A stretch of DNA of 34,441 nt. Origin: Chitinivibrionia bacterium (GTDB lineage: Bacteria > Fibrobacterota > Chitinivibrionia > Chitinivibrionales > Chitinivibrionaceae). Positions 2,265 to 22,259 of this stretch are shown here, one piece after another (within the stretch, counting starts at the first letter, position 1; the number at the start of each line of letters is the position of its first letter). A model generated the notes under the pieces. It ran no database searches and had not been told where the DNA came from. It worked only from the letters and a program-made list of their open reading frames with translations. The position numbers and the translations under genes were made by a program. The stretch spans positions 1-34,441 of the forward strand of contig WRAZ01000022.1 in NCBI GenBank assembly GCA_009779925.1, written 5' to 3'.

Positions 2265-3152
2265 ATGAAAACACGGATTTTAACAATAGTTTTGTTGCTT
2301 TTTGCGACTTGTTTTGCGCAAGGGCGGCAACAGCAACGACTGCAAATCGGCGTCAGTTTGCACCCTTATTACAGCTTCGCTCGGAATATTGTAGGCGACA
2401 GAGCGGACGTTATACCTATGATTAGCCCTAACGTTAATCCGCACGGTTATCGGATAATTCCCGAAGATATTGAGCGGGCGATGGGGCTTGACGTTGTAAT
2501 TCTCAACGGGGTAGGACACGACGAATTTGCGCTTCAGATACTTAGGGCGGCGGGCAATTTAAATCGAATACACAAAATTTTTGCCAACGACGGCGTTGCG
2601 CTTATTCCGCAGTCGATAAATACAAATCAGGTAAATTCGCACACTTTTATTTCGATTTCCGCGTCTATTCAGCAGGTTTTTACGATAGCGACCCGTCTTG
2701 CTGAAATCGACCCTGCAAATGCGCAGTTTTTCCGTCAGAATGCGCAGAGATACGCGCGACAGTTAAGGCAACTTCGGGCGGAATTTATGGAAAAACTTGC
2801 AGATTACAAGGAAAACGATTTCAGATGCGCTACAATTCACGGCGGGTATTCGTATCTTTTGCAGGAGTTCGGCTTTCAGGTGGAAGCGGTTATAGAGCCG
2901 AGCCACGGGATAGCTCCGACCGCTTCGCAAATGATGGAAACGATAGAGAAAATCCGCGCCGTCAATGTTCAGGTGGTTTTTTCGGAGAGCGATTTTCCGC
3001 CGACGTTTTTAAGGACAATTCAGGAAGAAACGGGCGTCCGCGTGGTTAAACTTTCGCATTTGTCATACGGTGAATACAGCGCGGAATTCTTTGAAAGAGG
3101 AATGCGCTTTAACTTGGAGCAATTACTTAGAGCAGTGAGCGGGAGAGATTGA
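2265..3152 (+). CDS. ZnuA/TroA-type metal ABC transporter substrate-binding protein
   Basis: A 295-residue exported protein with a strong AAAGGAGG site before the ATG and a signal peptide ending in FAQG. It follows the cluster A-I (ZnuA/TroA) plan: GVSLHPYYSFARNIVGD near the mature N-terminus, the first ligand motif NPHGY (His60), the second in NSHTF (His126, normally DPHxW), the third in IHGGYSYLL (His192), and VFSESDFPP near Glu241. The usual fourth acidic ligand late in the protein looks like serine (VVKLSHLS), so the site may be three-histidine only. Such proteins capture Zn or Mn in the periplasm and pass it to an ABC permease. No ATPase or permease gene lies in this window, so its partner must be elsewhere. 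The stop overlaps the region of the next gene's start, suggesting coupling. Confidence 0.85.
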   Translation: MKTRILTIVLLLFATCFAQGRQQQRLQIGVSLHPYYSFARNIVGDRADVIPMISPNVNPHGYRIIPEDIERAMGLDVVILNGVGHDEFALQILRAAGNLNRIHKIFANDGVALIPQSINTNQVNSHTFISISASIQQVFTIATRLAEIDPANAQFFRQNAQRYARQLRQLRAEFMEKLADYKENDFRCATIHGGYSYLLQEFGFQVEAVIEPSHGIAPTASQMMETIEKIRAVNVQVVFSESDFPPTFLRTIQEETGVRVVKLSHLSYGEYSAEFFERGMRFNLEQLLRAVSGRD

Positions 3153-3154
3153 AA

Positions 3155-4099
3155 ATGTTTAGAGTGTTTGTGATTATTTTGCTTTCTCTTACTTTAGCGT
3201 TTGCGAGAGGGGAGCGCCGAAATCGCGCGGCGACTGCGACGGCACAACCTGCGCCGCAAGAAATACGTCTTGCTGTTGCCGTAAGCATTCCTGCTTTGGG
3301 CGCGCTTTCGCGTGAAATTTTACGCGGAGTGCCCGTCGATGTTTTAGAGCCGTTCGGCACAGATTTTACTATGGACGAATTTGACGGGCTCGCATCCGAA
3401 TACAGCGACGAACTCGACGAAATCGCACCGAGGGTCGCGGCTGTTGTCGGAATTCGCTCGATTATTCCCGATGACCCGATATTCGTGCAACTTCGCCACA
3501 GAAACATACGGGTCGTTGAAATAGACTGCGCCATACCGCCAAGCCCGACAGGTTCGGCAATTCCGCTGATACGCACGTCTAACGGAGAGATAAATCCTTT
3601 CGTTTGGCTTTCGCTTGCAAACGCCGTTCGTATGGCAGAAATCCTGGAGAGTGATTTCAGCGCGCTTTTTCCGAAGTATGCTTGTGTCATTTCGGCTAAT
3701 TTGCTCGATTTTAAGCGGCGTTCGCTTGCACTTCGCAACGAATATACGCGGAAACTCCTTGAAATAGACAATTTCAGCGCAGTTGCATTAAGCGGAATTT
3801 TTGATTATTTGCTTATGGATATAGATGTTTTTGTTGTCGCAAGATTTTTGCCGGAATACGATTGGAATGAGGAGACAGCGCGAAAATTTCGCGATTTGGT
3901 AGAAAGCGGAGAGGTCGGCGTTGTAATAAACCGTTGGCAAACAGGCGCTCCTGCCTCGGAAATTATGGAAGAAAAAGGTGTTAGAACTGCTGTCCTGAGA
4001 ACGGGAATTCCTGCGCTGAGTCATTTCGATGACGGTTTTTTAGCATTCTGGGAGAGAAATGTTTCTGCTATAGCAGGTGCGTTTCAAATAAAAGAATAA
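3155..4099 (+). CDS. degenerate ZnuA-like periplasmic protein without the histidine ligands
   Basis: A 314-residue exported protein (signal peptide MFRVFVIILLSLTLAFA). The ATG at 3155 has GGGAG upstream; a TTG at 3149 is a weaker alternative. It is a diverged paralogue of the gene just before it. The ligand motifs can be aligned but each histidine is gone: FGTDFTMDEF (Phe71 in place of the first His), INPFVWLSLANA (Phe149 where DPHVWLDPxNA is usual) and ALSGIFDYLL (Ser213 where HxxFxYL is usual). The fold signature is otherwise kept. It therefore probably cannot bind zinc in the standard way; it may bind another ligand, act as a partner of the active copy, or be a decaying duplicate. The open frame and its tight coupling to the upstream gene argue that it is expressed. 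Confidence 0.7.
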   Translation: MFRVFVIILLSLTLAFARGERRNRAATATAQPAPQEIRLAVAVSIPALGALSREILRGVPVDVLEPFGTDFTMDEFDGLASEYSDELDEIAPRVAAVVGIRSIIPDDPIFVQLRHRNIRVVEIDCAIPPSPTGSAIPLIRTSNGEINPFVWLSLANAVRMAEILESDFSALFPKYACVISANLLDFKRRSLALRNEYTRKLLEIDNFSAVALSGIFDYLLMDIDVFVVARFLPEYDWNEETARKFRDLVESGEVGVVINRWQTGAPASEIMEEKGVRTAVLRTGIPALSHFDDGFLAFWERNVSAIAGAFQIKE

Positions 4100-4238: not shown

Positions 4239-4260
4239 TTAAATGCAAAGAGGTAATCTA

Positions 4261-6693
4261 ATGAATGATGACAACAAGTTTTTAGAAAAATATTTCAAAT
4301 ATTTTCGTGCGAAAGATGAAAATTCCGCTACACAATACGATAAATATATCGGTATAAGCGGCGTTTTACGTGCGCACGTCATAGAAAATTGGATTAAAAC
4401 GCAAAAAGCATATTTAGGTAATAATGAAATAAGACGAATTTATTATTTGTCTTTAGAATATAATCTCGGTTCGCCAATAAAAATGCATTCCGTTTCAAAC
4501 GAACTTCAATCTCATCTCGACATAATGCTCGAGCAGGAAGGAATTGAACGAAGTGAAATAAACGCCAAAGAGCCGCCTATGGATTTGGGAAACGGGTTTA
4601 TCGGGGAATTTTCCGCAAATATTCTTGAAGTGCTTGCCTCTAAAGGTATTCCGTCGGTTGCCTACGGGCTTTGGTATGGTATGGCGCAATTCAGGCAAGC
4701 TGTTAAAAATAATTCGGATAAAAGCATTCTCGGACAGTTGGAAAGACCATATTATTGGTCGTCTTTGTATAATCCGTGGGTTGTTGATAGACCTGAATAC
4801 AATAATCACGTGTGTTTCGGCAGTCGCTCATGCTACGGCGGTTGTTTAGGCAAGAAAAATCCCGACGAGTCCATTTGGATTTGCGGCGACAGAGTTATGG
4901 CGACACCTGTGGATTTTCCGATTTCGGGGTATCGAAACAAAGTCGTTAATACATTGCGCTTTTGGAACGCTTTGCCGAGCGAGGACTTTTCTTCGGATTA
5001 TATGCTTCACAGCGATTACGTACGCGCTTGCGACGAAAAAAGCGATTCCGTAAAGTTTTTGCGCTATTTGTTCAGCGAGGAAGTGTCTCAACAAACAAGC
5101 GAACTGCATATAAAACAACAATATTTCTTGGCTGCGGCGTCGATAAAAGATATATTGCGTCGGCATTTATCGCAAAATAATTCTATCGAAACCATTTGCG
5201 ACAAGGCGCAGATTATTCTTGCGGACAGTCGTATGGGATTTGCCATAATTGAATTTATACGGATTTTAATTGCTCATTTCGAAATTTCCGTCGAAAAAGC
5301 CGTGGGTATTGCCCGAAAAACATTTGTTATATCGCTTCCGCTTGTGGACGGCGGTCAATTTCCTAAAGTGCCTCTCTATATTTTAGAAACCCTTTTGCCG
5401 CAACACGTTAACGTAATTATGAAAATTAACCATTGGCTTCTCGATAAAGCGAGAAAGGAATATGGTGCTTCCGATGATGACCTGCGTGAAATTTCGCTTA
5501 TTGAAGAGGGCGCTATAAAGAAAATCTGTATGGCAAACCTTTCGCTTATGTTTTCGGGAAGCGCTTTCTCGTATTCTCAGAGCGGCGCAGACCATATAAA
5601 AAATGTTGCGCTTCCAAAGACTTCCCGCATATATTCGGTTGATATAAAACCGACTTTTTCGGGCGTTTCTCTTCGCAGATGGTTGCTTTATTCTAATAAA
5701 CACCTCGCGGATTTGATAACATCCAAGATTGGCGAAGGTTGGATTAAGGAAAACTCTAAACTTGCCGATTTTGAGCGCTACTCGCAAAACGCCGCCATAC
5801 AGAAAGTATTTACTCAAATAAAAGCGTACGCTAAAGAGGAGTTTCTCGAAAAAATGTTTAACGATATTGCAATTGCAAAAAACTCTTTGCTCGATACGCT
5901 TTTTATTACGCACATACGAAAAATAACCCTCGGCAACTCGCAGGTTTTAATGCTTCTTTATATTGCGGCGCGCTATTTAAGGCTGAGACGTGGAGAAAAA
6001 CTTGTTTCTCGCGCATATTTTTTCACAGGAAGAGCGTTGCCCTTTGATTTTTACGGCAAGCAGCTGGTATCGCTTGTGAATATTTTCTCACGAGCGCTTA
6101 AGGATTGCAAAGAATTGCAGGTGCATTTTGTTTACAACTGCACAACCTCTTTGGAAGAGGAACTTTTAGCTATCGGAGATATGGCGGAATTTATTTCGTC
6201 GCCTTATTCTTTAGAACCATCGTCGTTTAGTGCGGTAAGGGCGGCGGCTAACGGAATGGTGCCGCTTTCGGGAGCAAATTCCGTGGATATAGACACCGTT
6301 TCAAAAATTGGGCTGGATTCTTGCTTTTATTTGGAAAATACCGACAAAGACATCAGTGGATACGACATAAACGCGTATGTGGAAAACACACCTGTCCTTA
6401 AGGAAGCCTTTGAATTAGTGGAAAAATGGATTAAAGATTATTCGGGCGGCGAAGAAGAAGAGGGAAAAATTAATCCTCTTTGGGAAAATTTGCGTTATCG
6501 GGACGAAATGAAAATATTTTCGTTTTTTGACGAATATTGCCGAGCACAAGACAAAATAGACGCCGCATTCGCTGATAAGTCGGAATGGTCGTCGATGGCT
6601 TTACGAAATATCGCACGCTCAAGCGCAGGTTCGCTCGACAATACAATTTGCTCCTTATACGGAGATTATACTAATAAAGTGGTGGACTTGTAA
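4261..6693 (+). CDS. catalytically dead glycogen phosphorylase homologue (pseudoenzyme)
   Basis: An 810-residue intact protein, close to the usual GlgP length. ATG 4261 is preferred over 4243 because AGAGGT precedes it. GT35 blocks are visible along its whole length: RRIYYLSLEYNLGS, LGNGFIGEFSANILEVLAS, YNPWVVDRPEY, ISGYRNKVVNTLRFW, LHIKQQYFLAAASIKDILRR, ILETLLPQHVNVIMKINH, ISLIEEGAIKKICMANLS, GVSLRRWLLYSNKHLADLI. The catalytic motifs are not kept. QLNDTHPA has become ILADSRMG (His to Arg324); the NHTVLPEAL block has become LPLVDGGQF; KRIHEYKRQ has become IRKITLGNSQ; and EASGTGNMK has become EPSSFSAVR, which puts Arg660 where the PLP-carrying lysine should be. It should therefore not bind PLP or phosphorolyse glycogen. 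It may still bind glucan or a regulator. It is one base upstream of a PTS Enzyme I gene and surely co-transcribed with it. Confidence 0.85.
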   Translation: MNDDNKFLEKYFKYFRAKDENSATQYDKYIGISGVLRAHVIENWIKTQKAYLGNNEIRRIYYLSLEYNLGSPIKMHSVSNELQSHLDIMLEQEGIERSEINAKEPPMDLGNGFIGEFSANILEVLASKGIPSVAYGLWYGMAQFRQAVKNNSDKSILGQLERPYYWSSLYNPWVVDRPEYNNHVCFGSRSCYGGCLGKKNPDESIWICGDRVMATPVDFPISGYRNKVVNTLRFWNALPSEDFSSDYMLHSDYVRACDEKSDSVKFLRYLFSEEVSQQTSELHIKQQYFLAAASIKDILRRHLSQNNSIETICDKAQIILADSRMGFAIIEFIRILIAHFEISVEKAVGIARKTFVISLPLVDGGQFPKVPLYILETLLPQHVNVIMKINHWLLDKARKEYGASDDDLREISLIEEGAIKKICMANLSLMFSGSAFSYSQSGADHIKNVALPKTSRIYSVDIKPTFSGVSLRRWLLYSNKHLADLITSKIGEGWIKENSKLADFERYSQNAAIQKVFTQIKAYAKEEFLEKMFNDIAIAKNSLLDTLFITHIRKITLGNSQVLMLLYIAARYLRLRRGEKLVSRAYFFTGRALPFDFYGKQLVSLVNIFSRALKDCKELQVHFVYNCTTSLEEELLAIGDMAEFISSPYSLEPSSFSAVRAAANGMVPLSGANSVDIDTVSKIGLDSCFYLENTDKDISGYDINAYVENTPVLKEAFELVEKWIKDYSGGEEEEGKINPLWENLRYRDEMKIFSFFDEYCRAQDKIDAAFADKSEWSSMALRNIARSSAGSLDNTICSLYGDYTNKVVDL

Positions 6694-6694
6694 G

Positions 6695-8497
6695 ATGATG
6701 GGGGGGAAGCCAAAAATTTATTCGGGAACTTCGATAGCCGCAGGAAAAGGGCTTGGACAGGCGGTTATAGTCGAGGTTAAGAACGACAACATAATACGAA
6801 GAATTACGCGAGACGAAATTTTATTAGAGACAGACAGATTTGAAAACGCAAAACTGCAGGCGACAAAATATTACGATGACCTGTCTAAAGTCTTAAGAGC
6901 GAAAGCCGGTACGGGAAGCGATGACGCCTCTATAATTGAAATATATAAATGTATAGTGAACGACCCGATGCTTAGCAGAAGTGTTATGTATAATATTCGC
7001 ACGGAGTTGTTTTCCGCCGAAAGCTCCGTCCAAAAAGTCGCCAATGATATGATGGAGGAGTTTAAGTCTATCGAAGATGAATATATAAGGGAGCGAGATA
7101 AAGATATATGCGAGGCGGGCAAAAGAATTCTGCATTATCTCGGTTGCGATAATTTTGAAGAAAGAATATTTGAAAAAGATGTGGTTTTGTTTATAAACGG
7201 TCCGCTTATTTTGTCTCACATCGTTGGTAAAAACATAGAAAAAATAAAAGGAGTGGTGTGTTTGGCGTCGGGAAAAACTTCGCACGCCGCTATCGTTGCT
7301 CGTTCAAATTCAATTCCCGTAATTTCCGACGTGGACTTGCTGAAGTTAAACTTGGTTGAAGGAAATAACGTTTTAATTGATTGCGATGTGGGAACTTTTA
7401 CGATAAATCCGACTAAAAAATCGATTAACGAATATAATTCTTATATTAACGAAAAGAATTTGCGAAAGCGCGGATTACCCGCCTTTTTGAAACGTCCTGT
7501 TTTCACCAATGACGGAATGTCTATTTCGGTAATGGCAAATGTGTCTATCGAAGATGACGCGAGACTTGCAGTCGAAAACGGCGCTGACGGAATAGGTCTT
7601 GTGCGTACCGAAATATTATTTACCGAATACGCGGAATTTCCGTCCGAAAGCGAGCAAATTCGCTATTACGAAGGTATTTTTAACAAAATAGGGAGCGGCA
7701 AAAAAGTTAATATTCGCGTTATGGACGTGGGCGGCGACAAAATGGTCAAATTTATAAATGATATACCACGTGAAGAAAACCCGTTTATGGGTTGGCGGGC
7801 TGTGCGAATTTATCGTGAGAGAACCGAGTTTTTACATAAACAACTTGTTGCAATACTCAAAGCGGGGGAGGGCAAAAAATACGGAATAATGTTCCCTATG
7901 ATAACCACTCTTTCCGAATGGGATTTTTTGCGCAACTTTACCATAAAAACGGCTGATGAATTGGGAATAAAATGTCCGAGTTTGGGCGTTTTGCTTGAAG
8001 TGCCGCTTGCAATTTTAGAAATAGAGTCGTTTTTAAGCACCTTAGAATTTGCGTCTATCGGTACCAACGACCTTATGCAATATTTATCTGCCGCCGACCG
8101 AAGCAACGCTAAGGTTAACTATCTCTACAATCCGCTTGAGCCCGCGTTTCTGAAAATAGTGAAAACTGCCATAGACCAATGTGTTTCGGGCGGAAAGCCT
8201 ATTTCGATGTGCGGCGATATGGCGGCGCGTCCGGAGTGTACCATTTTGCTTTTGGGGCTTGGGCTTACTCGTTTCAGCGTTTCACCGCCTACGATACCGA
8301 TTATAAAGGAAATAATCAGCTGTATTCCCCTTATGAAAATTAAGGAAGAGACAAATCATTTGCTTTTGAATAAAAGAAGTGCAAAAGATGTTGCCGATTG
8401 GCTTCAGTATATTAACGGCAAATACTGTGCGCACATTTTTAAGAAGCACGGCTTTATTCCGCTATACGGCGATTATTATGATAAAGGAAATTTCTGA
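6695..8497 (+). CDS. ptsI: PTS Enzyme I, phosphoenolpyruvate-protein phosphotransferase
   Basis: A 600-residue protein, starting at ATG 6695 or 6698, one base after the upstream stop, so translation is probably coupled. Enzyme I takes phosphate from PEP onto a histidine and gives it to HPr. All key parts are visible: the N-terminal GTSIAAGKGLGQA, the phosphohistidine motif GKTSHAAIVAR (His197), IGLVRTEILFTE, MDVGGDKMVKF, NPFMGWRAVRIYRE, FPMITTLSEW, IGTNDLMQYLSAADRSN, and the catalytic cysteine in SMCGDMAARPE (Cys506). Unlike its phosphorylase-like neighbour it looks catalytically competent. No HPr or Enzyme II gene is in the window. The family also contains nitrogen-type EI (PtsP) and FruB fusions, but no GAF or HPr domain is present here. 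It converges on the SUMF1-like gene with a 13-base gap. Confidence 0.9.
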   Translation: MMGGKPKIYSGTSIAAGKGLGQAVIVEVKNDNIIRRITRDEILLETDRFENAKLQATKYYDDLSKVLRAKAGTGSDDASIIEIYKCIVNDPMLSRSVMYNIRTELFSAESSVQKVANDMMEEFKSIEDEYIRERDKDICEAGKRILHYLGCDNFEERIFEKDVVLFINGPLILSHIVGKNIEKIKGVVCLASGKTSHAAIVARSNSIPVISDVDLLKLNLVEGNNVLIDCDVGTFTINPTKKSINEYNSYINEKNLRKRGLPAFLKRPVFTNDGMSISVMANVSIEDDARLAVENGADGIGLVRTEILFTEYAEFPSESEQIRYYEGIFNKIGSGKKVNIRVMDVGGDKMVKFINDIPREENPFMGWRAVRIYRERTEFLHKQLVAILKAGEGKKYGIMFPMITTLSEWDFLRNFTIKTADELGIKCPSLGVLLEVPLAILEIESFLSTLEFASIGTNDLMQYLSAADRSNAKVNYLYNPLEPAFLKIVKTAIDQCVSGGKPISMCGDMAARPECTILLLGLGLTRFSVSPPTIPIIKEIISCIPLMKIKEETNHLLLNKRSAKDVADWLQYINGKYCAHIFKKHGFIPLYGDYYDKGNF

Positions 8498-8510: not shown

Positions 8511-9257
8511 TTAATGTGCGCATCTGACGCCGATGCTGATTTCGCCCGCCTCGGGTGCAAACCACTGACGATTTGTTCCTCTTAGCGCTCGCTCTTCGCT
8601 GTACCAGCCGCCGCCTCGAATTACATTGAAACGTCCGACTTGCGGACCTCTCGGATTGTGTTGCGGTGCAAATTGATAGAAATCCTGCTCGTATCTGTCG
8701 TTTACCCATTCCCAAACGTTTCCGTTCATATCGACCAATCCAAAATCGCCTACTCCGTCAAAAGTGTAAACCTGCACGGAACTTCGGCTTCTGAAACGCG
8801 CTCTTTGCGGCGTAGGTCTTTCGTTGCCCCACGAAAAGGTGGTTCTTCCGCCGTTGGTTGCGGCAAATTCCCATTCGGCTTCGGTCGGAAGCCTGCCGCC
8901 TCTAAACCTGCAATATTCGCTTGCCTGTCTCCAAGTTATGCAAATGACAGGGTTGTTGGGTGCAAGCAATTCTTCGGGCGGCGTCATTCTTGTAAGTCCT
9001 TGGTTTGTCCATAAAAAACAATTAGCGGTATTTGGACGAGAACATCTTCCTGCATTCACGCATTGCTGATAATCGTTGTTGCTGACGGGGCGTTTGTCGA
9101 GACGGAATGCGTCCACCGTTATTTCGCGCACGGGTCTTTCGTCGGGATTTCCTCTTTCGCTTCCTCTGTTAAAAGTTCCGCCGCGAATTTGCACGATTTC
9201 ACTGAAAGAAAACGCCGCCGTAGCCAAGCAGAAAATTAAAAGCAGAAGCGCTTTCAT
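8511..9257 (-). CDS. secreted SUMF1/FGE-sulfatase-domain protein, non-catalytic
   Basis: A 248-residue protein with signal peptide MKALLLLIFCLATAAFSFS. The rest is one formylglycine-generating-enzyme-like fold: IRGGTFNRGSERGNPDERPVRE (start of the domain, shortened), FRLDKRPVSNNDYQQC, PVICITWRQASEYCRFRGGRLPTEAEWEFAA, FGLVDMNGNVWEWVND, and the end FNVIRGGGWYSEERALRG...IGVRCAH. True FGE carries two cysteines around GGSWxCxxxxCR; here the segment is GGGWYSEERALRG, so the catalytic pair is absent and the domain is likely a binding or structural module. Such proteins are abundant in Fibrobacter-like and Bacteroidota genomes. Its ATG overlaps the stop of the PEGA gene by four bases (ATGA), so the two are translationally coupled. 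Confidence 0.85.
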   Translation of the reverse strand: MKALLLLIFCLATAAFSFSEIVQIRGGTFNRGSERGNPDERPVREITVDAFRLDKRPVSNNDYQQCVNAGRCSRPNTANCFLWTNQGLTRMTPPEELLAPNNPVICITWRQASEYCRFRGGRLPTEAEWEFAATNGGRTTFSWGNERPTPQRARFRSRSSVQVYTFDGVGDFGLVDMNGNVWEWVNDRYEQDFYQFAPQHNPRGPQVGRFNVIRGGGWYSEERALRGTNRQWFAPEAGEISIGVRCAH

Positions 9258-9955
9258 CGGCTTCGGCTTTCCTGCATTGCCATTGAAACAAACATTACAG
9301 ACAAAAATACTATAATTCCTGCCCTGTCCATTCTCCGTCTTTTTGTGGCGAGTTCTTCTTCGCTGAGTGTATCGGTTTTGTCTTTTTCTTCTTCTTCGCT
9401 TTCCGCTTGTGTTGCCGTATCACGACCTCGCGTTCTTGCGGGAGCCTGCACCTGCTGATTTTCCGAAATAAGCGCTATGGAAAGCGTATCATTTTGTCCT
9501 GCCGATAAAGTGAAAGTTGTATCAAAAAGGGTAAAGCCCTCTTTAAGAAGCATAATGTTGTATTCGCGCGGCTCAAGCTCGTCGGCAAAAAACGGAGTAG
9601 TCCCCGAAACTCGACGATTGACAAGAATTGTGGCACCGTCGGGTGTTGTAGTAATTGCAAGCGATGCCATTGTCGCTTCTTCGACAACGATTTCCGCTTC
9701 GGCTTCGACAAGCTCAGCCACCGAGCCGAGCTCAATTTCTGCTGTGGTTATTTCGCCTGCTTCTTCCGTCGTTTCGTACGAAATTTCGGCAATCTCTTCA
9801 AGCGTTTCTGCAACGCTTTGCGAAGTCTCGATATTTATGTCTGTCGGCTCGTACGGTAAAATTTCCATATCGGCGCTTGTCAAAGGCGCAGGCATAGGAA
9901 CAGTTGCAAACGAAAAAGTTGCTAATATCAATAACATTATAAAAATATTTTTCAA
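9254..9955 (-). CDS. PEGA-domain exported protein
   Basis: A 233-residue protein starting at TTG 9955, with GAGGAG seven to eight bases before it, and a signal peptide (MKNIFIMLLILATFSFA). Residues about 30-90 are acidic, rich in Glu, Thr and Ala (low complexity). Residues about 95-165 form a PEGA domain: LAITTTPDGATILVNRRVSGTTPFFAD, LEPREYNIMLLKEGF. A charged linker follows and then a hydrophobic stretch near the C-terminus (AGIIVFLSVMFVSMAM), which may anchor it in a membrane. PEGA domains are short beta modules found in surface proteins. It is coupled to the SUMF1-like gene and follows the micro-membrane genes in the same direction, 22 bases after the 40-residue ORF. Confidence 0.75.
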   Translation of the reverse strand: MKNIFIMLLILATFSFATVPMPAPLTSADMEILPYEPTDINIETSQSVAETLEEIAEISYETTEEAGEITTAEIELGSVAELVEAEAEIVVEEATMASLAITTTPDGATILVNRRVSGTTPFFADELEPREYNIMLLKEGFTLFDTTFTLSAGQNDTLSIALISENQQVQAPARTRGRDTATQAESEEEEKDKTDTLSEEELATKRRRMDRAGIIVFLSVMFVSMAMQESRSR

Positions 9956-10922: not shown

Positions 10923-13031
10923 TTATCTCGTCAGCAACATTTTCCGTGAAGTATTAAACCCGTTTCTGCCTCTTACGTTTACTATCAACGTTTGATTTCT
11001 TTGTATCGAAGCGGGGATATTGAATGTGCCTACACCTGCCGCATTAAGGTTGATGTCTTGAGTGAAAAGCATACGACCTCTTACGTCCGTAATTTGCAAA
11101 CTAACCATCTGCTCACTCGGAATGTTGAAGTTAATTGCGTTTCGCGTAATAGTCATTCCTCTGCCTGCAACTCTCGCCGCACCACTGCTTACAGGTCTGT
11201 TTTGCGGGATAATTGATACGGGGCTGTCGCAACCGAAGCCAACGAATTCGAGGCTTGTGATTGTTCCTGTAGTTGCAGTCGTTCCGTCTGCCGCGAGCAT
11301 AATGCTTACAATATTTGCCTGATTATTCGGCTGGCAAAGAGTCATATTCTCAGGATCCATACACGCCCACAACTGCTCGAACAATGCGGGATTTAAGCGA
11401 ACTGTGCGAGAAGTGGCGCTGGCAGGAATTACTTCTGATGTATAACCTGCACCGTTATTAGATAAAGCAGGGTCGCCGAGTATCAATCTCATAGGTCCGG
11501 TTGAAGTGTAAGTAAGTACTATTTCGCTTACGTACTCAAAATCTCCTTCGTCAAAAGCGACCCAAATCATAGACCAAGAACCGGCGTTGGCTCTGTTAAG
11601 AGAGAAATTTACTTGTGTTCCTGTGGGGGTCACAGTTGCTGAAGACCCCGGTCCGGGCTCTACTCCCCAACCGGTTGACCAAGTTGCAACGTCCATAGGG
11701 GGAATATCGCAACCGTCGCCCGGCTCAACTCCTGTACCTGTTGATGCAGGAGCCCACCAGTTTTGTGAAAGAAGAAGCATATTCAAAACTTGAATAGCTA
11801 CCGAATACACGTCGGTGGGAGTTTGGGCTCTCAAATAATTGTACATACTGTTTAAGAAATTTTGGTTTGTAGAACTGCCGACCATTCCTGCGGCAAACGG
11901 CGCCATAAACGACATACTTGTCCAGTCCGTGTGGGGATTGTTTACTCGTTGTCCCGCTAAGGTGAAACCTTGCCCTGCATTTATGTTATTAGGGTTTCCT
12001 CCTGAAATTCCATTCAACCAAGTAGTAATTCTGTTCATTTGCGTTCTTGCGCGAGTTTCGCCGTAGTGAATGTAGTCCATTGCTAAAAACCATGGTACTC
12101 TGCAAGCGTTAAACGAATAATTCCATTGATTGTGTTCTCCGCTGACCAATGCTTCATTTGTACCTTGGCGAACTACTCTTGCAGGAATACCTATTACGAA
12201 ATCGGGCATAAGACCGGTAGTCGAATGGGAGACGCTGTTCAAAAGATTGTAAACCGTGTCAGCTGCAATTCTCCAATAGTCTTGACTTGTTGCTCTTGCA
12301 AACGCTTTGAAATGGGCAGGTCGCCAATCGGAAGACCTCGAAGTTGTTCTTTGCGCCTCCAAATCAGTTGTTTGACCGGCATTTTGCCAATCGCCGAGTT
12401 TTGTTCTGTGTGAAGCGTTGTTCGGCTGACCATTATGCATATTTGCTTGTCTCAGCCCTGCGATAATTTGATGTGCGTCGTTCATATACTGTAAATTTGT
12501 CGGGCTACCCCATTGGTCGTGAGCCAAAAGTAAAGCGTAAGCCATATCCAAACAACCATCTGTTGCATTGTTGCTTCTGCGTGCGAGGTCAGGTCTTGCA
12601 GGGCTACCTGTCGGAAAAACCGTCCACGACATCAATCTATGGTCTGTCATTGACGGCATTGCTTTTCTCAAAGCGTTCATCTCGTCAAATATTTGTCTTT
12701 CGTCGCCTCTTACGCCTGCCATAAGTGCAAAAATTTTCATTGCATATCCGTGTGCTTCGGAAATCGTGAGGGCACTTGCCGATACTCCTGTTCCGGTTGC
12801 TCTAATCCAAGCAAAACCGTTTCCACGTCCAAGGAAAGTGTCTCTGTAATGATTGTATCTTGCTATTACGTCATTGTTCATTTGTTGTGGGTTTTGAATG
12901 TTTGGTCTTATCGGATTTCCGCCCATCTCAAATCTACCCTCTTGCGGAAAAGGTCGGTTGTTTGCCCAAAGCGGTATTACTAAAACCGCTGAAAGTCCCA
13001 GAGCGATTAGTGCGTTTTTTTTGTTAAGCAT
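10923..13031 (-). CDS. secreted GH8 glycosidase (endoglucanase/xylanase type) with binding module and C-terminal sorting tail
   Basis: A 702-residue protein; GGAG lies 11 bases before ATG 13031. The signal peptide ends in VIPLWA. Residues about 55-440 are glycoside hydrolase family 8: the catalytic acid in TISEAHGYAMKI (Glu92), the substrate-site aspartate in NNATDGCLDMAYALLLAHDQWG (Asp158, written short of the full motif), and NACRVPWFLAMDY, the later family motif. GH8 enzymes invert the bond in beta-1,4 glucans, xylan or chitosan. A Gly/Pro linker with two EPG repeats (about 445-475) leads to a beta-sandwich, probably carbohydrate-binding (about 480-620). The last 70 residues (ITDVRGRMLFTQDI...NTSRKMLLTR) resemble a type IX secretion C-terminal domain. 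Its own terminator follows. Which polymer it cuts cannot be told from sequence. Confidence 0.85.
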   Translation of the reverse strand: MLNKKNALIALGLSAVLVIPLWANNRPFPQEGRFEMGGNPIRPNIQNPQQMNNDVIARYNHYRDTFLGRGNGFAWIRATGTGVSASALTISEAHGYAMKIFALMAGVRGDERQIFDEMNALRKAMPSMTDHRLMSWTVFPTGSPARPDLARRSNNATDGCLDMAYALLLAHDQWGSPTNLQYMNDAHQIIAGLRQANMHNGQPNNASHRTKLGDWQNAGQTTDLEAQRTTSRSSDWRPAHFKAFARATSQDYWRIAADTVYNLLNSVSHSTTGLMPDFVIGIPARVVRQGTNEALVSGEHNQWNYSFNACRVPWFLAMDYIHYGETRARTQMNRITTWLNGISGGNPNNINAGQGFTLAGQRVNNPHTDWTSMSFMAPFAAGMVGSSTNQNFLNSMYNYLRAQTPTDVYSVAIQVLNMLLLSQNWWAPASTGTGVEPGDGCDIPPMDVATWSTGWGVEPGPGSSATVTPTGTQVNFSLNRANAGSWSMIWVAFDEGDFEYVSEIVLTYTSTGPMRLILGDPALSNNGAGYTSEVIPASATSRTVRLNPALFEQLWACMDPENMTLCQPNNQANIVSIMLAADGTTATTGTITSLEFVGFGCDSPVSIIPQNRPVSSGAARVAGRGMTITRNAINFNIPSEQMVSLQITDVRGRMLFTQDINLNAAGVGTFNIPASIQRNQTLIVNVRGRNGFNTSRKMLLTR

Positions 13032-20368: not shown

Positions 20369-21649
20369 TTAAACCTGCCGCTGACTTTTCTGATTACTCG
20401 GGTTTGTCACAACGACAATTCCGTCATCCGAAACAAAATATTTCTTTTTGTCATCTTCCAAGTCGAAGCCGATTTTTGTGTTCGGCGGAATACAAACGTC
20501 TTTGTCAATAATCGCTCTTTTTATATGACAGTTTTCGCCTACGTCAACGTTCGGGTGCAGTATGGAATCTTCGACTTTTGCAAAGCTGTGAACGCGCACG
20601 CTTCGCGATAAAACCGAGTTAATCACTTCGCCGCCCGAAATTATACAACCGCTCGAAACAATCGAGTCAATTGCTGTTCCGACTCTTTTGTCTTTTCCTG
20701 AAGTATCGCTACCGAATACAAATTTTGCAGGCGCGGCTTTTTCGCTTCCTGTTCTGATAGGCCACGATTCGTTATACAAATTGATTTCGGGGATAACGTC
20801 TTTCAATGTCATATTTGCACGATAATACGCTTCCAGTGTTCCTACGTCTTCCCAATACATACATTGCTCGGGCGATTCTCCGGGGATTACGTTTTTGTGG
20901 AAATCGTAAACATAAACAGGGTATTCGTTGTAAATAGACGGAATAATGTTTTTGCCGAAATCGTGCGAAGAGTTTTCGTCAGCCGCGTCTTCCTCTAATT
21001 TTCTTGTTAAAAATCCTGTGTTAAAAATGTAATTACCCATTGAGCAAAGAGCCATTTTGGGATTACCCGGCATTGGTTTGGGATTATCGGGTTTTTCTTC
21101 AAATCCTATCATTCTTCCGTTAGGGTCAACCTGAATTACGCCGAATTGACTTGCTTCGCTTATCGGCTTGGGAATTGCCGCGACAGTCGCAACCGCTCCG
21201 TTGTCTCTGTGGAACGCAAGCATTCTCGAAATATCCATTTTGTAAATATGATCTGCGCCGAAAACCGCGACAAAATCGGGTTTTTCGTCATAAATCAAGT
21301 TCATATTCTGATAAATCGCGTCTGCAGTTCCCTGATACCAATTCTTTCCCGTTCTCATCTGCGCGGGAACAGGGTCGATATAATGACCAAGAATGTTTGA
21401 CAAACGCCAACCGTTAGTCAAATGTTTAATAAGCGAATCGGCTTTAAATTGGGTGAGTACTTTAATTTTGAATATACCCGAATTCACGAAATTGTTCAAA
21501 ACAAAGTCGATAATTCGATATTTCCCGCCAAAAATCACCGCCGGTTTGGCTCTGTCGCGAGTAAGCGGATAAAGCCGAGAACCCTCGCCGCCCGCCATAA
21601 TCATAGCCAATACGTTCGCATAACCAGACGCTTTTCTGTAAGTTTCCAT
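20369..21649 (-). CDS. glgC: glucose-1-phosphate adenylyltransferase (ADP-glucose pyrophosphorylase)
   Basis: A 426-residue protein. ATG 21649 is chosen because GGGAGGG precedes it. GlgC makes ADP-glucose from ATP and glucose-1-phosphate, the committed step of glycogen synthesis. Motifs: MIMAGGEGSRLYPLTRDRAKPAV (the nucleotide loop, shown in part), FGGKYRIIDFVLNN, WYQGTADAIYQN, GADHIYKMD, IGFEEKPDNP, and a left-handed beta-helix at the C-terminus (VHSFAKVEDSILHPNVDVG, shown in part) that binds effectors. Length is close to E. coli GlgC (431). It is upstream of the sigma gene and downstream of efp. Together with the phosphorylase-like gene at 4261 it is a second glycogen-related gene in the window. 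Confidence 0.95.
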   Translation of the reverse strand: METYRKASGYANVLAMIMAGGEGSRLYPLTRDRAKPAVIFGGKYRIIDFVLNNFVNSGIFKIKVLTQFKADSLIKHLTNGWRLSNILGHYIDPVPAQMRTGKNWYQGTADAIYQNMNLIYDEKPDFVAVFGADHIYKMDISRMLAFHRDNGAVATVAAIPKPISEASQFGVIQVDPNGRMIGFEEKPDNPKPMPGNPKMALCSMGNYIFNTGFLTRKLEEDAADENSSHDFGKNIIPSIYNEYPVYVYDFHKNVIPGESPEQCMYWEDVGTLEAYYRANMTLKDVIPEINLYNESWPIRTGSEKAAPAKFVFGSDTSGKDKRVGTAIDSIVSSGCIISGGEVINSVLSRSVRVHSFAKVEDSILHPNVDVGENCHIKRAIIDKDVCIPPNTKIGFDLEDDKKKYFVSDDGIVVVTNPSNQKSQRQV

Positions 21650-21686
21650 AAAGCGCACCCTCCCTTTGTATAAGTTTAAGTTTTGT

Positions 21687-22259
21687 TTATTTTTCAATTC
21701 TTCCCGAATATTCGCCGTTTGTTGTGTTTACGATAACAGTTTCGTCCGCTTCAATGAACATAGGAACTTGGATTACCAAGCCCGTCTCAAGTGTTGCAGG
21801 TTTTGTAACACTTCCCGAAATGGTTGCACCTTTAATTCCCGGTTCGGTTTCCGTAATTTTTAATTGAACGGTTGTGGGTGGTTGAACACCGATTGGTTTG
21901 TTGTCGTAAAGCATAATCTGACAAGTGTTGTTTGGAAGCAAATATCCCATTGCGTCGCCGGCTTCATCTTCCTTAAGTGTAATTTGCTCGAAATTTTCGC
22001 TGTCCATAAACACATAGCCGTCGCCGTCTTCGTAAAGATACTCAAACTGCTTTGTTTCGACAAAAGCGGTATCAACTTTTTCGTCCGTTCTGAAACGGTG
22101 TTCGACTTTTCGTCCGTTAATAATATTTTTTAGCATTGCAGAAATGTTGTTTGAACCGCGTCCTGTTTTTGTGTGTGAGAAATCAATAACTCTACACGGT
22201 TGCCCTTCGTAAAGAAGAACCATTCCTCTTGAAATATCTCCTGCTTTAATTGTAGCCAT
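21687..22259 (-). CDS. efp: elongation factor P
   Basis: A 190-residue protein from ATG 22259, with AGGAG seven bases before; the GTG at 22268 is a weaker start inside that site. EF-P rescues ribosomes stalled at proline runs. The N-terminal KOW-like domain ends in a tip loop THTKTGRGSNN-type (here SHTKTGRGSNN): Arg34 stands where E. coli has the modified Lys34. The later OB domains show YVFMDSENFEQITL, NKPIGVQPPTTVQLKITETEPGIKG (partial) and KPATLETGLVIQVPMFI, all standard. With arginine at the tip, EpmA lysylation is ruled out; a rhamnose (EarP) or no modification is possible. The start of glgC is 37 bases downstream, so they may be co-transcribed. Confidence 0.95.
   Translation of the reverse strand: MATIKAGDISRGMVLLYEGQPCRVIDFSHTKTGRGSNNISAMLKNIINGRKVEHRFRTDEKVDTAFVETKQFEYLYEDGDGYVFMDSENFEQITLKEDEAGDAMGYLLPNNTCQIMLYDNKPIGVQPPTTVQLKITETEPGIKGATISGSVTKPATLETGLVIQVPMFIEADETVIVNTTNGEYSGRIEK

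Follow-up and report, generated by a model that had tools for sequence, protein, structure and literature searches.

The analysed stretch (hereafter the window), 34,441 nucleotides of a contig from a Chitinivibrionia bacterium, carries on its forward strand, at positions 4261-6693, a gene for a divergent paralogue of the glycogen phosphorylases (GP) of family GT35, a pseudo-phosphorylase designated here psGlgP. Its reading frame runs uninterrupted through 810 codons up to a TAA stop. An alternative in-frame ATG is present at 4243, and the start at 4261 was favoured because AGAGGT lies six bases upstream of it. The 810-residue product matched the Pfam Phosphorylase profile (PF00343) with 392.8 bits against a gathering score of 27, covering profile positions 2-704 of 713, and was aligned with rabbit GP over residues 8-798 (313 bits, E = 4e-92). 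Its AlphaFold2 model (mean pLDDT 82, pTM 0.84) was shown by Foldseek to resemble rabbit GP along the whole length (TM 0.88). Meanwhile, psGlgP scored below the cut-off of the NCBIfam phosphorylase family TIGR02093 (414.9 versus 552.9 bits). A preliminary description of this DNA had stated that the frame is intact over the 810 codons and that many GT35 structural blocks are kept; the former was found to be so up to the stop codon, and the latter was in good agreement with the nearly full-length profile match and with the modelled fold. From these sequence and model comparisons, psGlgP is a full-length GT35 member by descent, with a predicted phosphorylase fold.

The following gene on the same strand (6695-8497), which starts one base past the psGlgP stop, encodes a 600-residue Enzyme I (phosphoenolpyruvate-protein phosphotransferase) of the phosphotransferase system (PTS), as identified with PF02896, PF05524, PF00391 and TIGR01417 (415.2 bits; cut-off 341.7). 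The catalytic residues of this protein, the phosphorylated His196 and Cys506, are present together with the arginine motif, GTND and the motifs GIGLVRTE, GGDK and NPFMGWR, and it is the sole Enzyme I in the genome. The downstream boundary of the psGlgP-Enzyme I operon is formed by a convergent pair of genes on the reverse strand (8511-9955) encoding FGE-sulfatase-like and PEGA-domain proteins. Upstream of psGlgP, two tandem genes (2265-4099) encode ZnuA-like periplasmic metal-binding proteins, the second of which is a weak match (43 bits) restricted to the C-terminal portion of the profile; psGlgP is likewise preceded by this pair in G001, an independent genome from the genus of the window. 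Further genes on the reverse strand encode a secreted GH8-domain protein with a long C-terminal extension (10923-13031) and a glgC-like ADP-glucose pyrophosphorylase (20369-21697), the latter placing glycogen synthesis genes in the window along with psGlgP.

To describe the active site, psGlgP was aligned with rabbit GP, whose residue numbering is used below, and with canonical GlgP of Fibrobacterota; all motif coordinates are on the forward strand. As the preliminary description had claimed, the PLP motif EASGTGNMK was found to have become EPSSFSAVR (6214-6240; G675S, T676F, K680R), so that the PLP Schiff-base lysine K680, which was Lys in 28 of the 28 canonical copies compared, is replaced by Arg660 at the end of the motif. 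The replacements reported for the other two motifs were also reproduced by the alignment: the acceptor-site motif NDTHPA now reads ADSRMG (5221-5238; residues 321-326 of psGlgP), in which the active-site His is Arg324 (H341R) and Asp339 is kept here while being Gly in other families, and the substrate-phosphate motif KRIHEYKRQ reads IRKITLGNSQ (5914-5943; residues 552-561; K568R, R569K, Y573G, K574N). In addition, the glycine loop GNGGLG of the phosphate/donor site reads GNGFIG (4588-4605; G135F, L136I), and H377P and N484S were recognized as further substitutions; Lys and Asn accordingly replace R569 and K574 of the substrate-phosphate site, and Phe replaces the loop residue G135. The assertion that every catalytic motif is destroyed was thus nearly literally true, except that E672, D339, N133 and W491 remain. 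The segment KINHWL (5422-5439), which includes N407, a residue shared by all canonical copies and paralogues, is also present.

In an enzyme, conservation is normally strongest at the active site. When the columns invariant in the canonical copies were examined, psGlgP of the window was shown to keep 10 of 47 (21%) within the active-site shell, a list chosen by us from known GP residues, versus 68 of 129 (53%) elsewhere (Fisher p = 3e-4), a pattern that is the reverse of that of a normal enzyme, with the active site least kept. The same losses were observed in G001. A compensated frameshift was rejected as their origin, since conserved residues flank each motif on both sides in register. Compared with GlgP and the GT35 family (PF00343, TIGR02093), psGlgP shows clear homology, being collinear over approximately 790 residues with a full-length fold, but differs in lacking the PLP lysine, the phosphate site and the donor and acceptor residues, in its score below the family cut-off, and in its location in an operon with Enzyme I. 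Judged from its residues, psGlgP of the window is probably a catalytically dead phosphorylase. No pseudoenzyme of the glycogen phosphorylase family was found in the literature searched.

On a different contig, the window's genome (G000) also possesses a canonical GlgP that is intact (G000:C29:11997-14138, 1111 bits). A search for GT35 copies in 61 related genomes, the relatives with GTDB names being Chitinispirillales, Chitinispirillaceae and Chitinivibrionales bacteria, revealed a divergent second copy in 39 of the 40 genomes of the window's order by our count, the exception (G035, 82% complete) having canonical GlgP alone; only canonical-like copies were detected in the fetched genomes of other orders. 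The phylogenetic tree split the canonical copies, including that of rabbit, from the divergent ones by one fully supported branch, and the divergent copies roughly track the taxonomic families, which is the pattern expected from one old duplication. The window's family is represented by five genomes (G000-G004) in three genera, G000 and G001 belonging to one genus. A scan of a species collection with two short patterns (80 loci kept), which rare members elsewhere could escape, yielded outside Fibrobacterota only paralogue-segment matches that score closer to canonical GlgP and have no adjacent Enzyme I.

Within the order, Enzyme I was the next gene after psGlgP, on the same strand, in all 36 genomes in which the contig continues; in the remaining three psGlgP genomes the contig stops within 68 bases. 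Taking as the Enzyme I start the candidate nearest the psGlgP stop, exact starts being unproven, a possible start lies 11 bp or less from that stop in 30 of the 36, with an ATGA overlap in 18 of these. No Enzyme I was found in the flanks, mostly 2-3 kb long, of 29 canonical GlgP loci belonging to the phylum, nor in those, at most 5 kb long, of 59 GlgP loci in other phyla. Since Enzyme I occurs throughout the phylum, its mere presence is uninformative, and it is the adjacency that is informative. No psGlgP neighbour other than Enzyme I recurs outside close relatives of the same genus; the ZnuA pair and the GH8-like, Omp85-like and FapA-like genes were considered as conserved neighbours and rejected, being common to G001 only.

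The psGlgP-linked Enzyme I genes formed one clade (SH-aLRT 100) in a quick tree in which long branches are present; this clade adjoins the ordinary Enzyme I of Fibrobacteraceae and their relatives, and the additional Enzyme I genes of the order fall elsewhere in the tree. The linked genes keep the catalytic motifs, and the small genomes of the order, including that of the window, have no Enzyme I besides the linked copy. Up to eight Enzyme I-like genes occur in large genomes of this order, such as G022, G028 and G025, and the sampled unlinked ones represent separate lineages. Furthermore, the branch lengths of psGlgP and Enzyme I were shown to covary on a fixed tree when canonical GlgP was taken into account (partial r 0.79, 33 branches), and also without the window's family (partial r 0.61), a covariation that rests on one control gene and to which adjacent genes may be led by shared relaxed constraint of other origin. 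The Enzyme I of the window is typical of PtsI (TIGR01417) in its score and retained catalytic residues, but differs in that its fixed neighbour is a GT35 pseudoenzyme, with ptsH located elsewhere. A fixed pairing of this kind was not found in the literature searched. The preliminary description had suggested a role in glucan sensing or scaffolding, which is conjectural; the strongest functional lead for psGlgP is its invariant coupling to Enzyme I, a feature absent from that description.

One HPr was identified in the window's genome (PF00381, 86 bits), having the intact His15 motif GIHARPA and the Ser46 region, and its gene ptsH lies apart from that of Enzyme I. At locus L096:7534-9232, a gene resembling that of a ribosome hibernation factor is followed by an MlaD-like gene and then by the HPr gene, an arrangement that recalls the rpoN-hpf-pts order of other bacteria. 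Two EIIA_2 domains were detected in the genome, both in fusions, namely, a Na+/H+ antiporter with a C-terminal PTS_EIIA_2 (L179:1489-3411; G000:C3:3773) and a PTS_EIIA_2 fused to a DacZ-like diadenylate cyclase (DAC) (L180:1474-2820; G000:C11:30543), the domain composition of the latter suggesting PTS control of c-di-AMP synthesis. Meanwhile, no match to HPr kinase, PTS_EIIC or mannose-type EIIA (EIIA-man) was obtained in this genome. Because Enzyme I, HPr and the two EIIA fusions occur without a match to these three components, the PTS of this organism is probably regulatory, the permeases searched for being those of the PTS_EIIC family, as distinct from the Sor, Gat and Lac types. This composition is similar to that of a regulatory PTS of the PTS-Ntr type, which likewise has Enzyme I, HPr and EIIA domains without a PTS_EIIC match, but is distinct in that the EIIA domains are fused to the antiporter and the cyclase.

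The glycogen phosphorylase of E. coli is a binding partner of HPr, which controls its oligomeric state and activity (PMC11046441), the phosphorylation state of HPr determines the activity of the HPr-glycogen phosphorylase complex (PMC4029488), and the PDB entries 9s8b and 9s8k contain glycogen phosphorylase plus HPr; the GT35 fold is thus a known docking partner of the PTS. Because HPr both binds and regulates GlgP in E. coli, we propose by analogy that psGlgP may be a catalytically dead GlgP acting as a regulatory partner of the PTS, a proposal in which our confidence and our doubt are about equal. It draws further on the invariant pairing with Enzyme I, the single clade and kept motifs of the linked Enzyme I genes, the covariation in rate, the persistence of psGlgP in genomes where no canonical GlgP was found, the composition of the PTS in the window's genome, and the conservation of the cap and storage-site segments described below. 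In this scheme, a duplicated GlgP freed of catalysis would have become a dedicated PTS partner, and synthesis of psGlgP and Enzyme I from a two-gene operon would match their dosage. The protein would have abandoned phosphorolysis while keeping the fold of a phosphorylase, its N-terminal cap and the non-catalytic glucan-site region, and its binding partner would be Enzyme I or HPr, by analogy with the complex of canonical GlgP and HPr in E. coli. A glucan and a sugar phosphate are the candidate ligands; with either of them bound, psGlgP might tune the flow of phosphate that starts at PEP and runs via Enzyme I and HPr into the EIIA domains serving as regulatory outputs, control in this direction being presumed; the outputs here would be the Na+/H+ antiporter-EIIA and EIIA-diadenylate cyclase fusions. 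The more general statement, that a GT35 pseudoenzyme present across the order and translated together with Enzyme I represents a novel kind of PTS regulatory subunit, which informs the PEP phosphorelay of glucan or energy status and outlasts GlgP in some lineages, is advanced tentatively, our doubt slightly exceeding our confidence. Like the E. coli system, the proposed one would tie the PTS phosphorelay to a GT35 protein; however, the partner in E. coli is an active enzyme that is not encoded with Enzyme I, whereas here a putatively dead paralogue stands beside Enzyme I and canonical GlgP is separate and unlinked.

Alternatively, psGlgP might regulate canonical GlgP, either through mixed dimers or by titrating HPr away from it. 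Such a role would be consistent with the presence of both copies in most genomes, with the retention of K41, D42 and T47 of the N-terminal cap together with R193, R309 and R310 in all five members of the window's family, and with the regulation of GlgP by HPr in E. coli described above. However, psGlgP was the sole PF00343 match, with Enzyme I kept, in six genomes of 68-99% completeness (G005, G011, G026, G029, G032 and G039), including G032 (99%), G029 (96%) and G026 (95%), and a real loss of canonical GlgP is indicated by the fact that G005 and G011 represent two genera of one family. These six genomes disfavour the regulation of canonical GlgP as the sole role of psGlgP, and since the invariant partner is Enzyme I and not GlgP, we consider this explanation unlikely. 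As for glycogen breakdown in the psGlgP-only genomes, it may proceed by another route, or the canonical gene may be missing from the bin.

Another explanation is that the paralogue is still an enzyme, acting on a different substrate with the PLP kept and the donor and acceptor sites altered in most families, and that only the copies of the window's family are dead. Outside this family, the PLP pocket was indeed found to be largely preserved (K680 in 33/33, T676 in 31/33, W491 in 34/34, N133 in 31/33, K574 in 29/34 and E672 in 29/33), whereas at the substrate site L136 (0/33, Lys in 29), D339 (0/34, Gly in 34), H341 (0/34, Arg in 27), P342 (0/34, Cys in 32) and D283 (0/34, Glu in 34) were all lost. 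Replacements such as L136K, D339G and H341R are themselves conserved, which implies a site that is repurposed or locked rather than drifting, and the conserved replacements at 136, 339, 341 and 342 would suit such an enzyme, as would the six genomes in which the paralogue is the only GT35 protein. On the other hand, the phosphate-binding R569 was kept in only 6 of 34 copies (Pro in 6), Y573 in 11, H377 in 12 and N484 in 17; G135, T676 and K574 are gone in all five members of the window's family; and conservation of the PLP segment, which reaches 98% in canonical copies, is among the lowest of any segment in the paralogues. An enzyme of altered specificity is thus regarded as improbable. The distribution of these residues indicates a stepwise erosion, in which the substrate site was lost first across the order and the PLP pocket subsequently in the window's family. 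It follows no simple marker at K680, for which an Arg-bearing clade had been suggested as a check: Arg occupies this position in G000, G001 and G003, but G002 and G004 have Lys within an equally wrecked motif, and the other families keep Lys as well.

A third possibility, that psGlgP is drifting and stays open only through translational coupling to an essential downstream Enzyme I, could explain the tight overlap of the two genes and the long branches of the window's family (0.9-1.1 substitutions per site, versus 0.2-0.3 for canonical GlgP). Pairwise NG86 estimates, however, gave a dN/dS of 0.20 for G000-G001, a rough ratio as dS (1.5) is near saturation, and of 0.04-0.05 for the most closely related pairs in a different genus. 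Between G002 and G004, dN was 0.09, synonymous sites being saturated. The comparison of dN/dS across relatives, which the preliminary description had called for, therefore gave values well below 1 wherever measurable, and psGlgP is under purifying selection. Moreover, all five members of the window's family have 56 of the canonical-invariant columns unchanged, the losses are clustered at the active site instead of being random, and the fold is confidently predicted, so that mere drift appears very unlikely.

In a set of 18 genomes common to both, mean pairwise identity was lower for the paralogue (0.46) than for canonical GlgP (0.65), yet conservation in the paralogues exceeded that in canonical GlgP at residues 34-60, corresponding to the N-terminal cap and the next helix, and at 430-438. 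The latter residues, which we take to be part of the glycogen storage site of muscle GP, lie within the retained segment SLIEEGAIKK (5494-5523 on the forward strand; rabbit 429-438), where S429, E432, E433 and G434 are present in all five members of the window's family and K437 in four of them; Gln401 and the aromatic residue at 404 are lost in G000 and G001. The original reading of psGlgP as a pseudoenzyme with a non-catalytic role was supported by an undisrupted gene in each of the five genomes of the family, by the active site-specific erosion and the low dN/dS, and further by the coexisting intact GlgP and the order-wide paralogue family. Lastly, most of the genomes are metagenome bins, but an assembly or gene-calling artefact has a negligible probability and was ruled out, as the motif regions align without a change of frame and independent bins of several genera share the open frame, the motif losses and the downstream gene.

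If the pairing of psGlgP with Enzyme I is functional, then the active GlgP bound by HPr, the paralogue that keeps PLP without the substrate site, and the paralogue without PLP would constitute a series in which the transition from a metabolic enzyme to a signalling part can be studied. With the catalytic and regulatory roles placed in separate genes, the question of why the PTS is wired to glycogen would become testable. Meanwhile, most paralogues of the order outside the window's genus pass the automatic TIGR02093 cut-off (596-902 bits), and for this reason their database annotations as phosphorylases are probably wrong.
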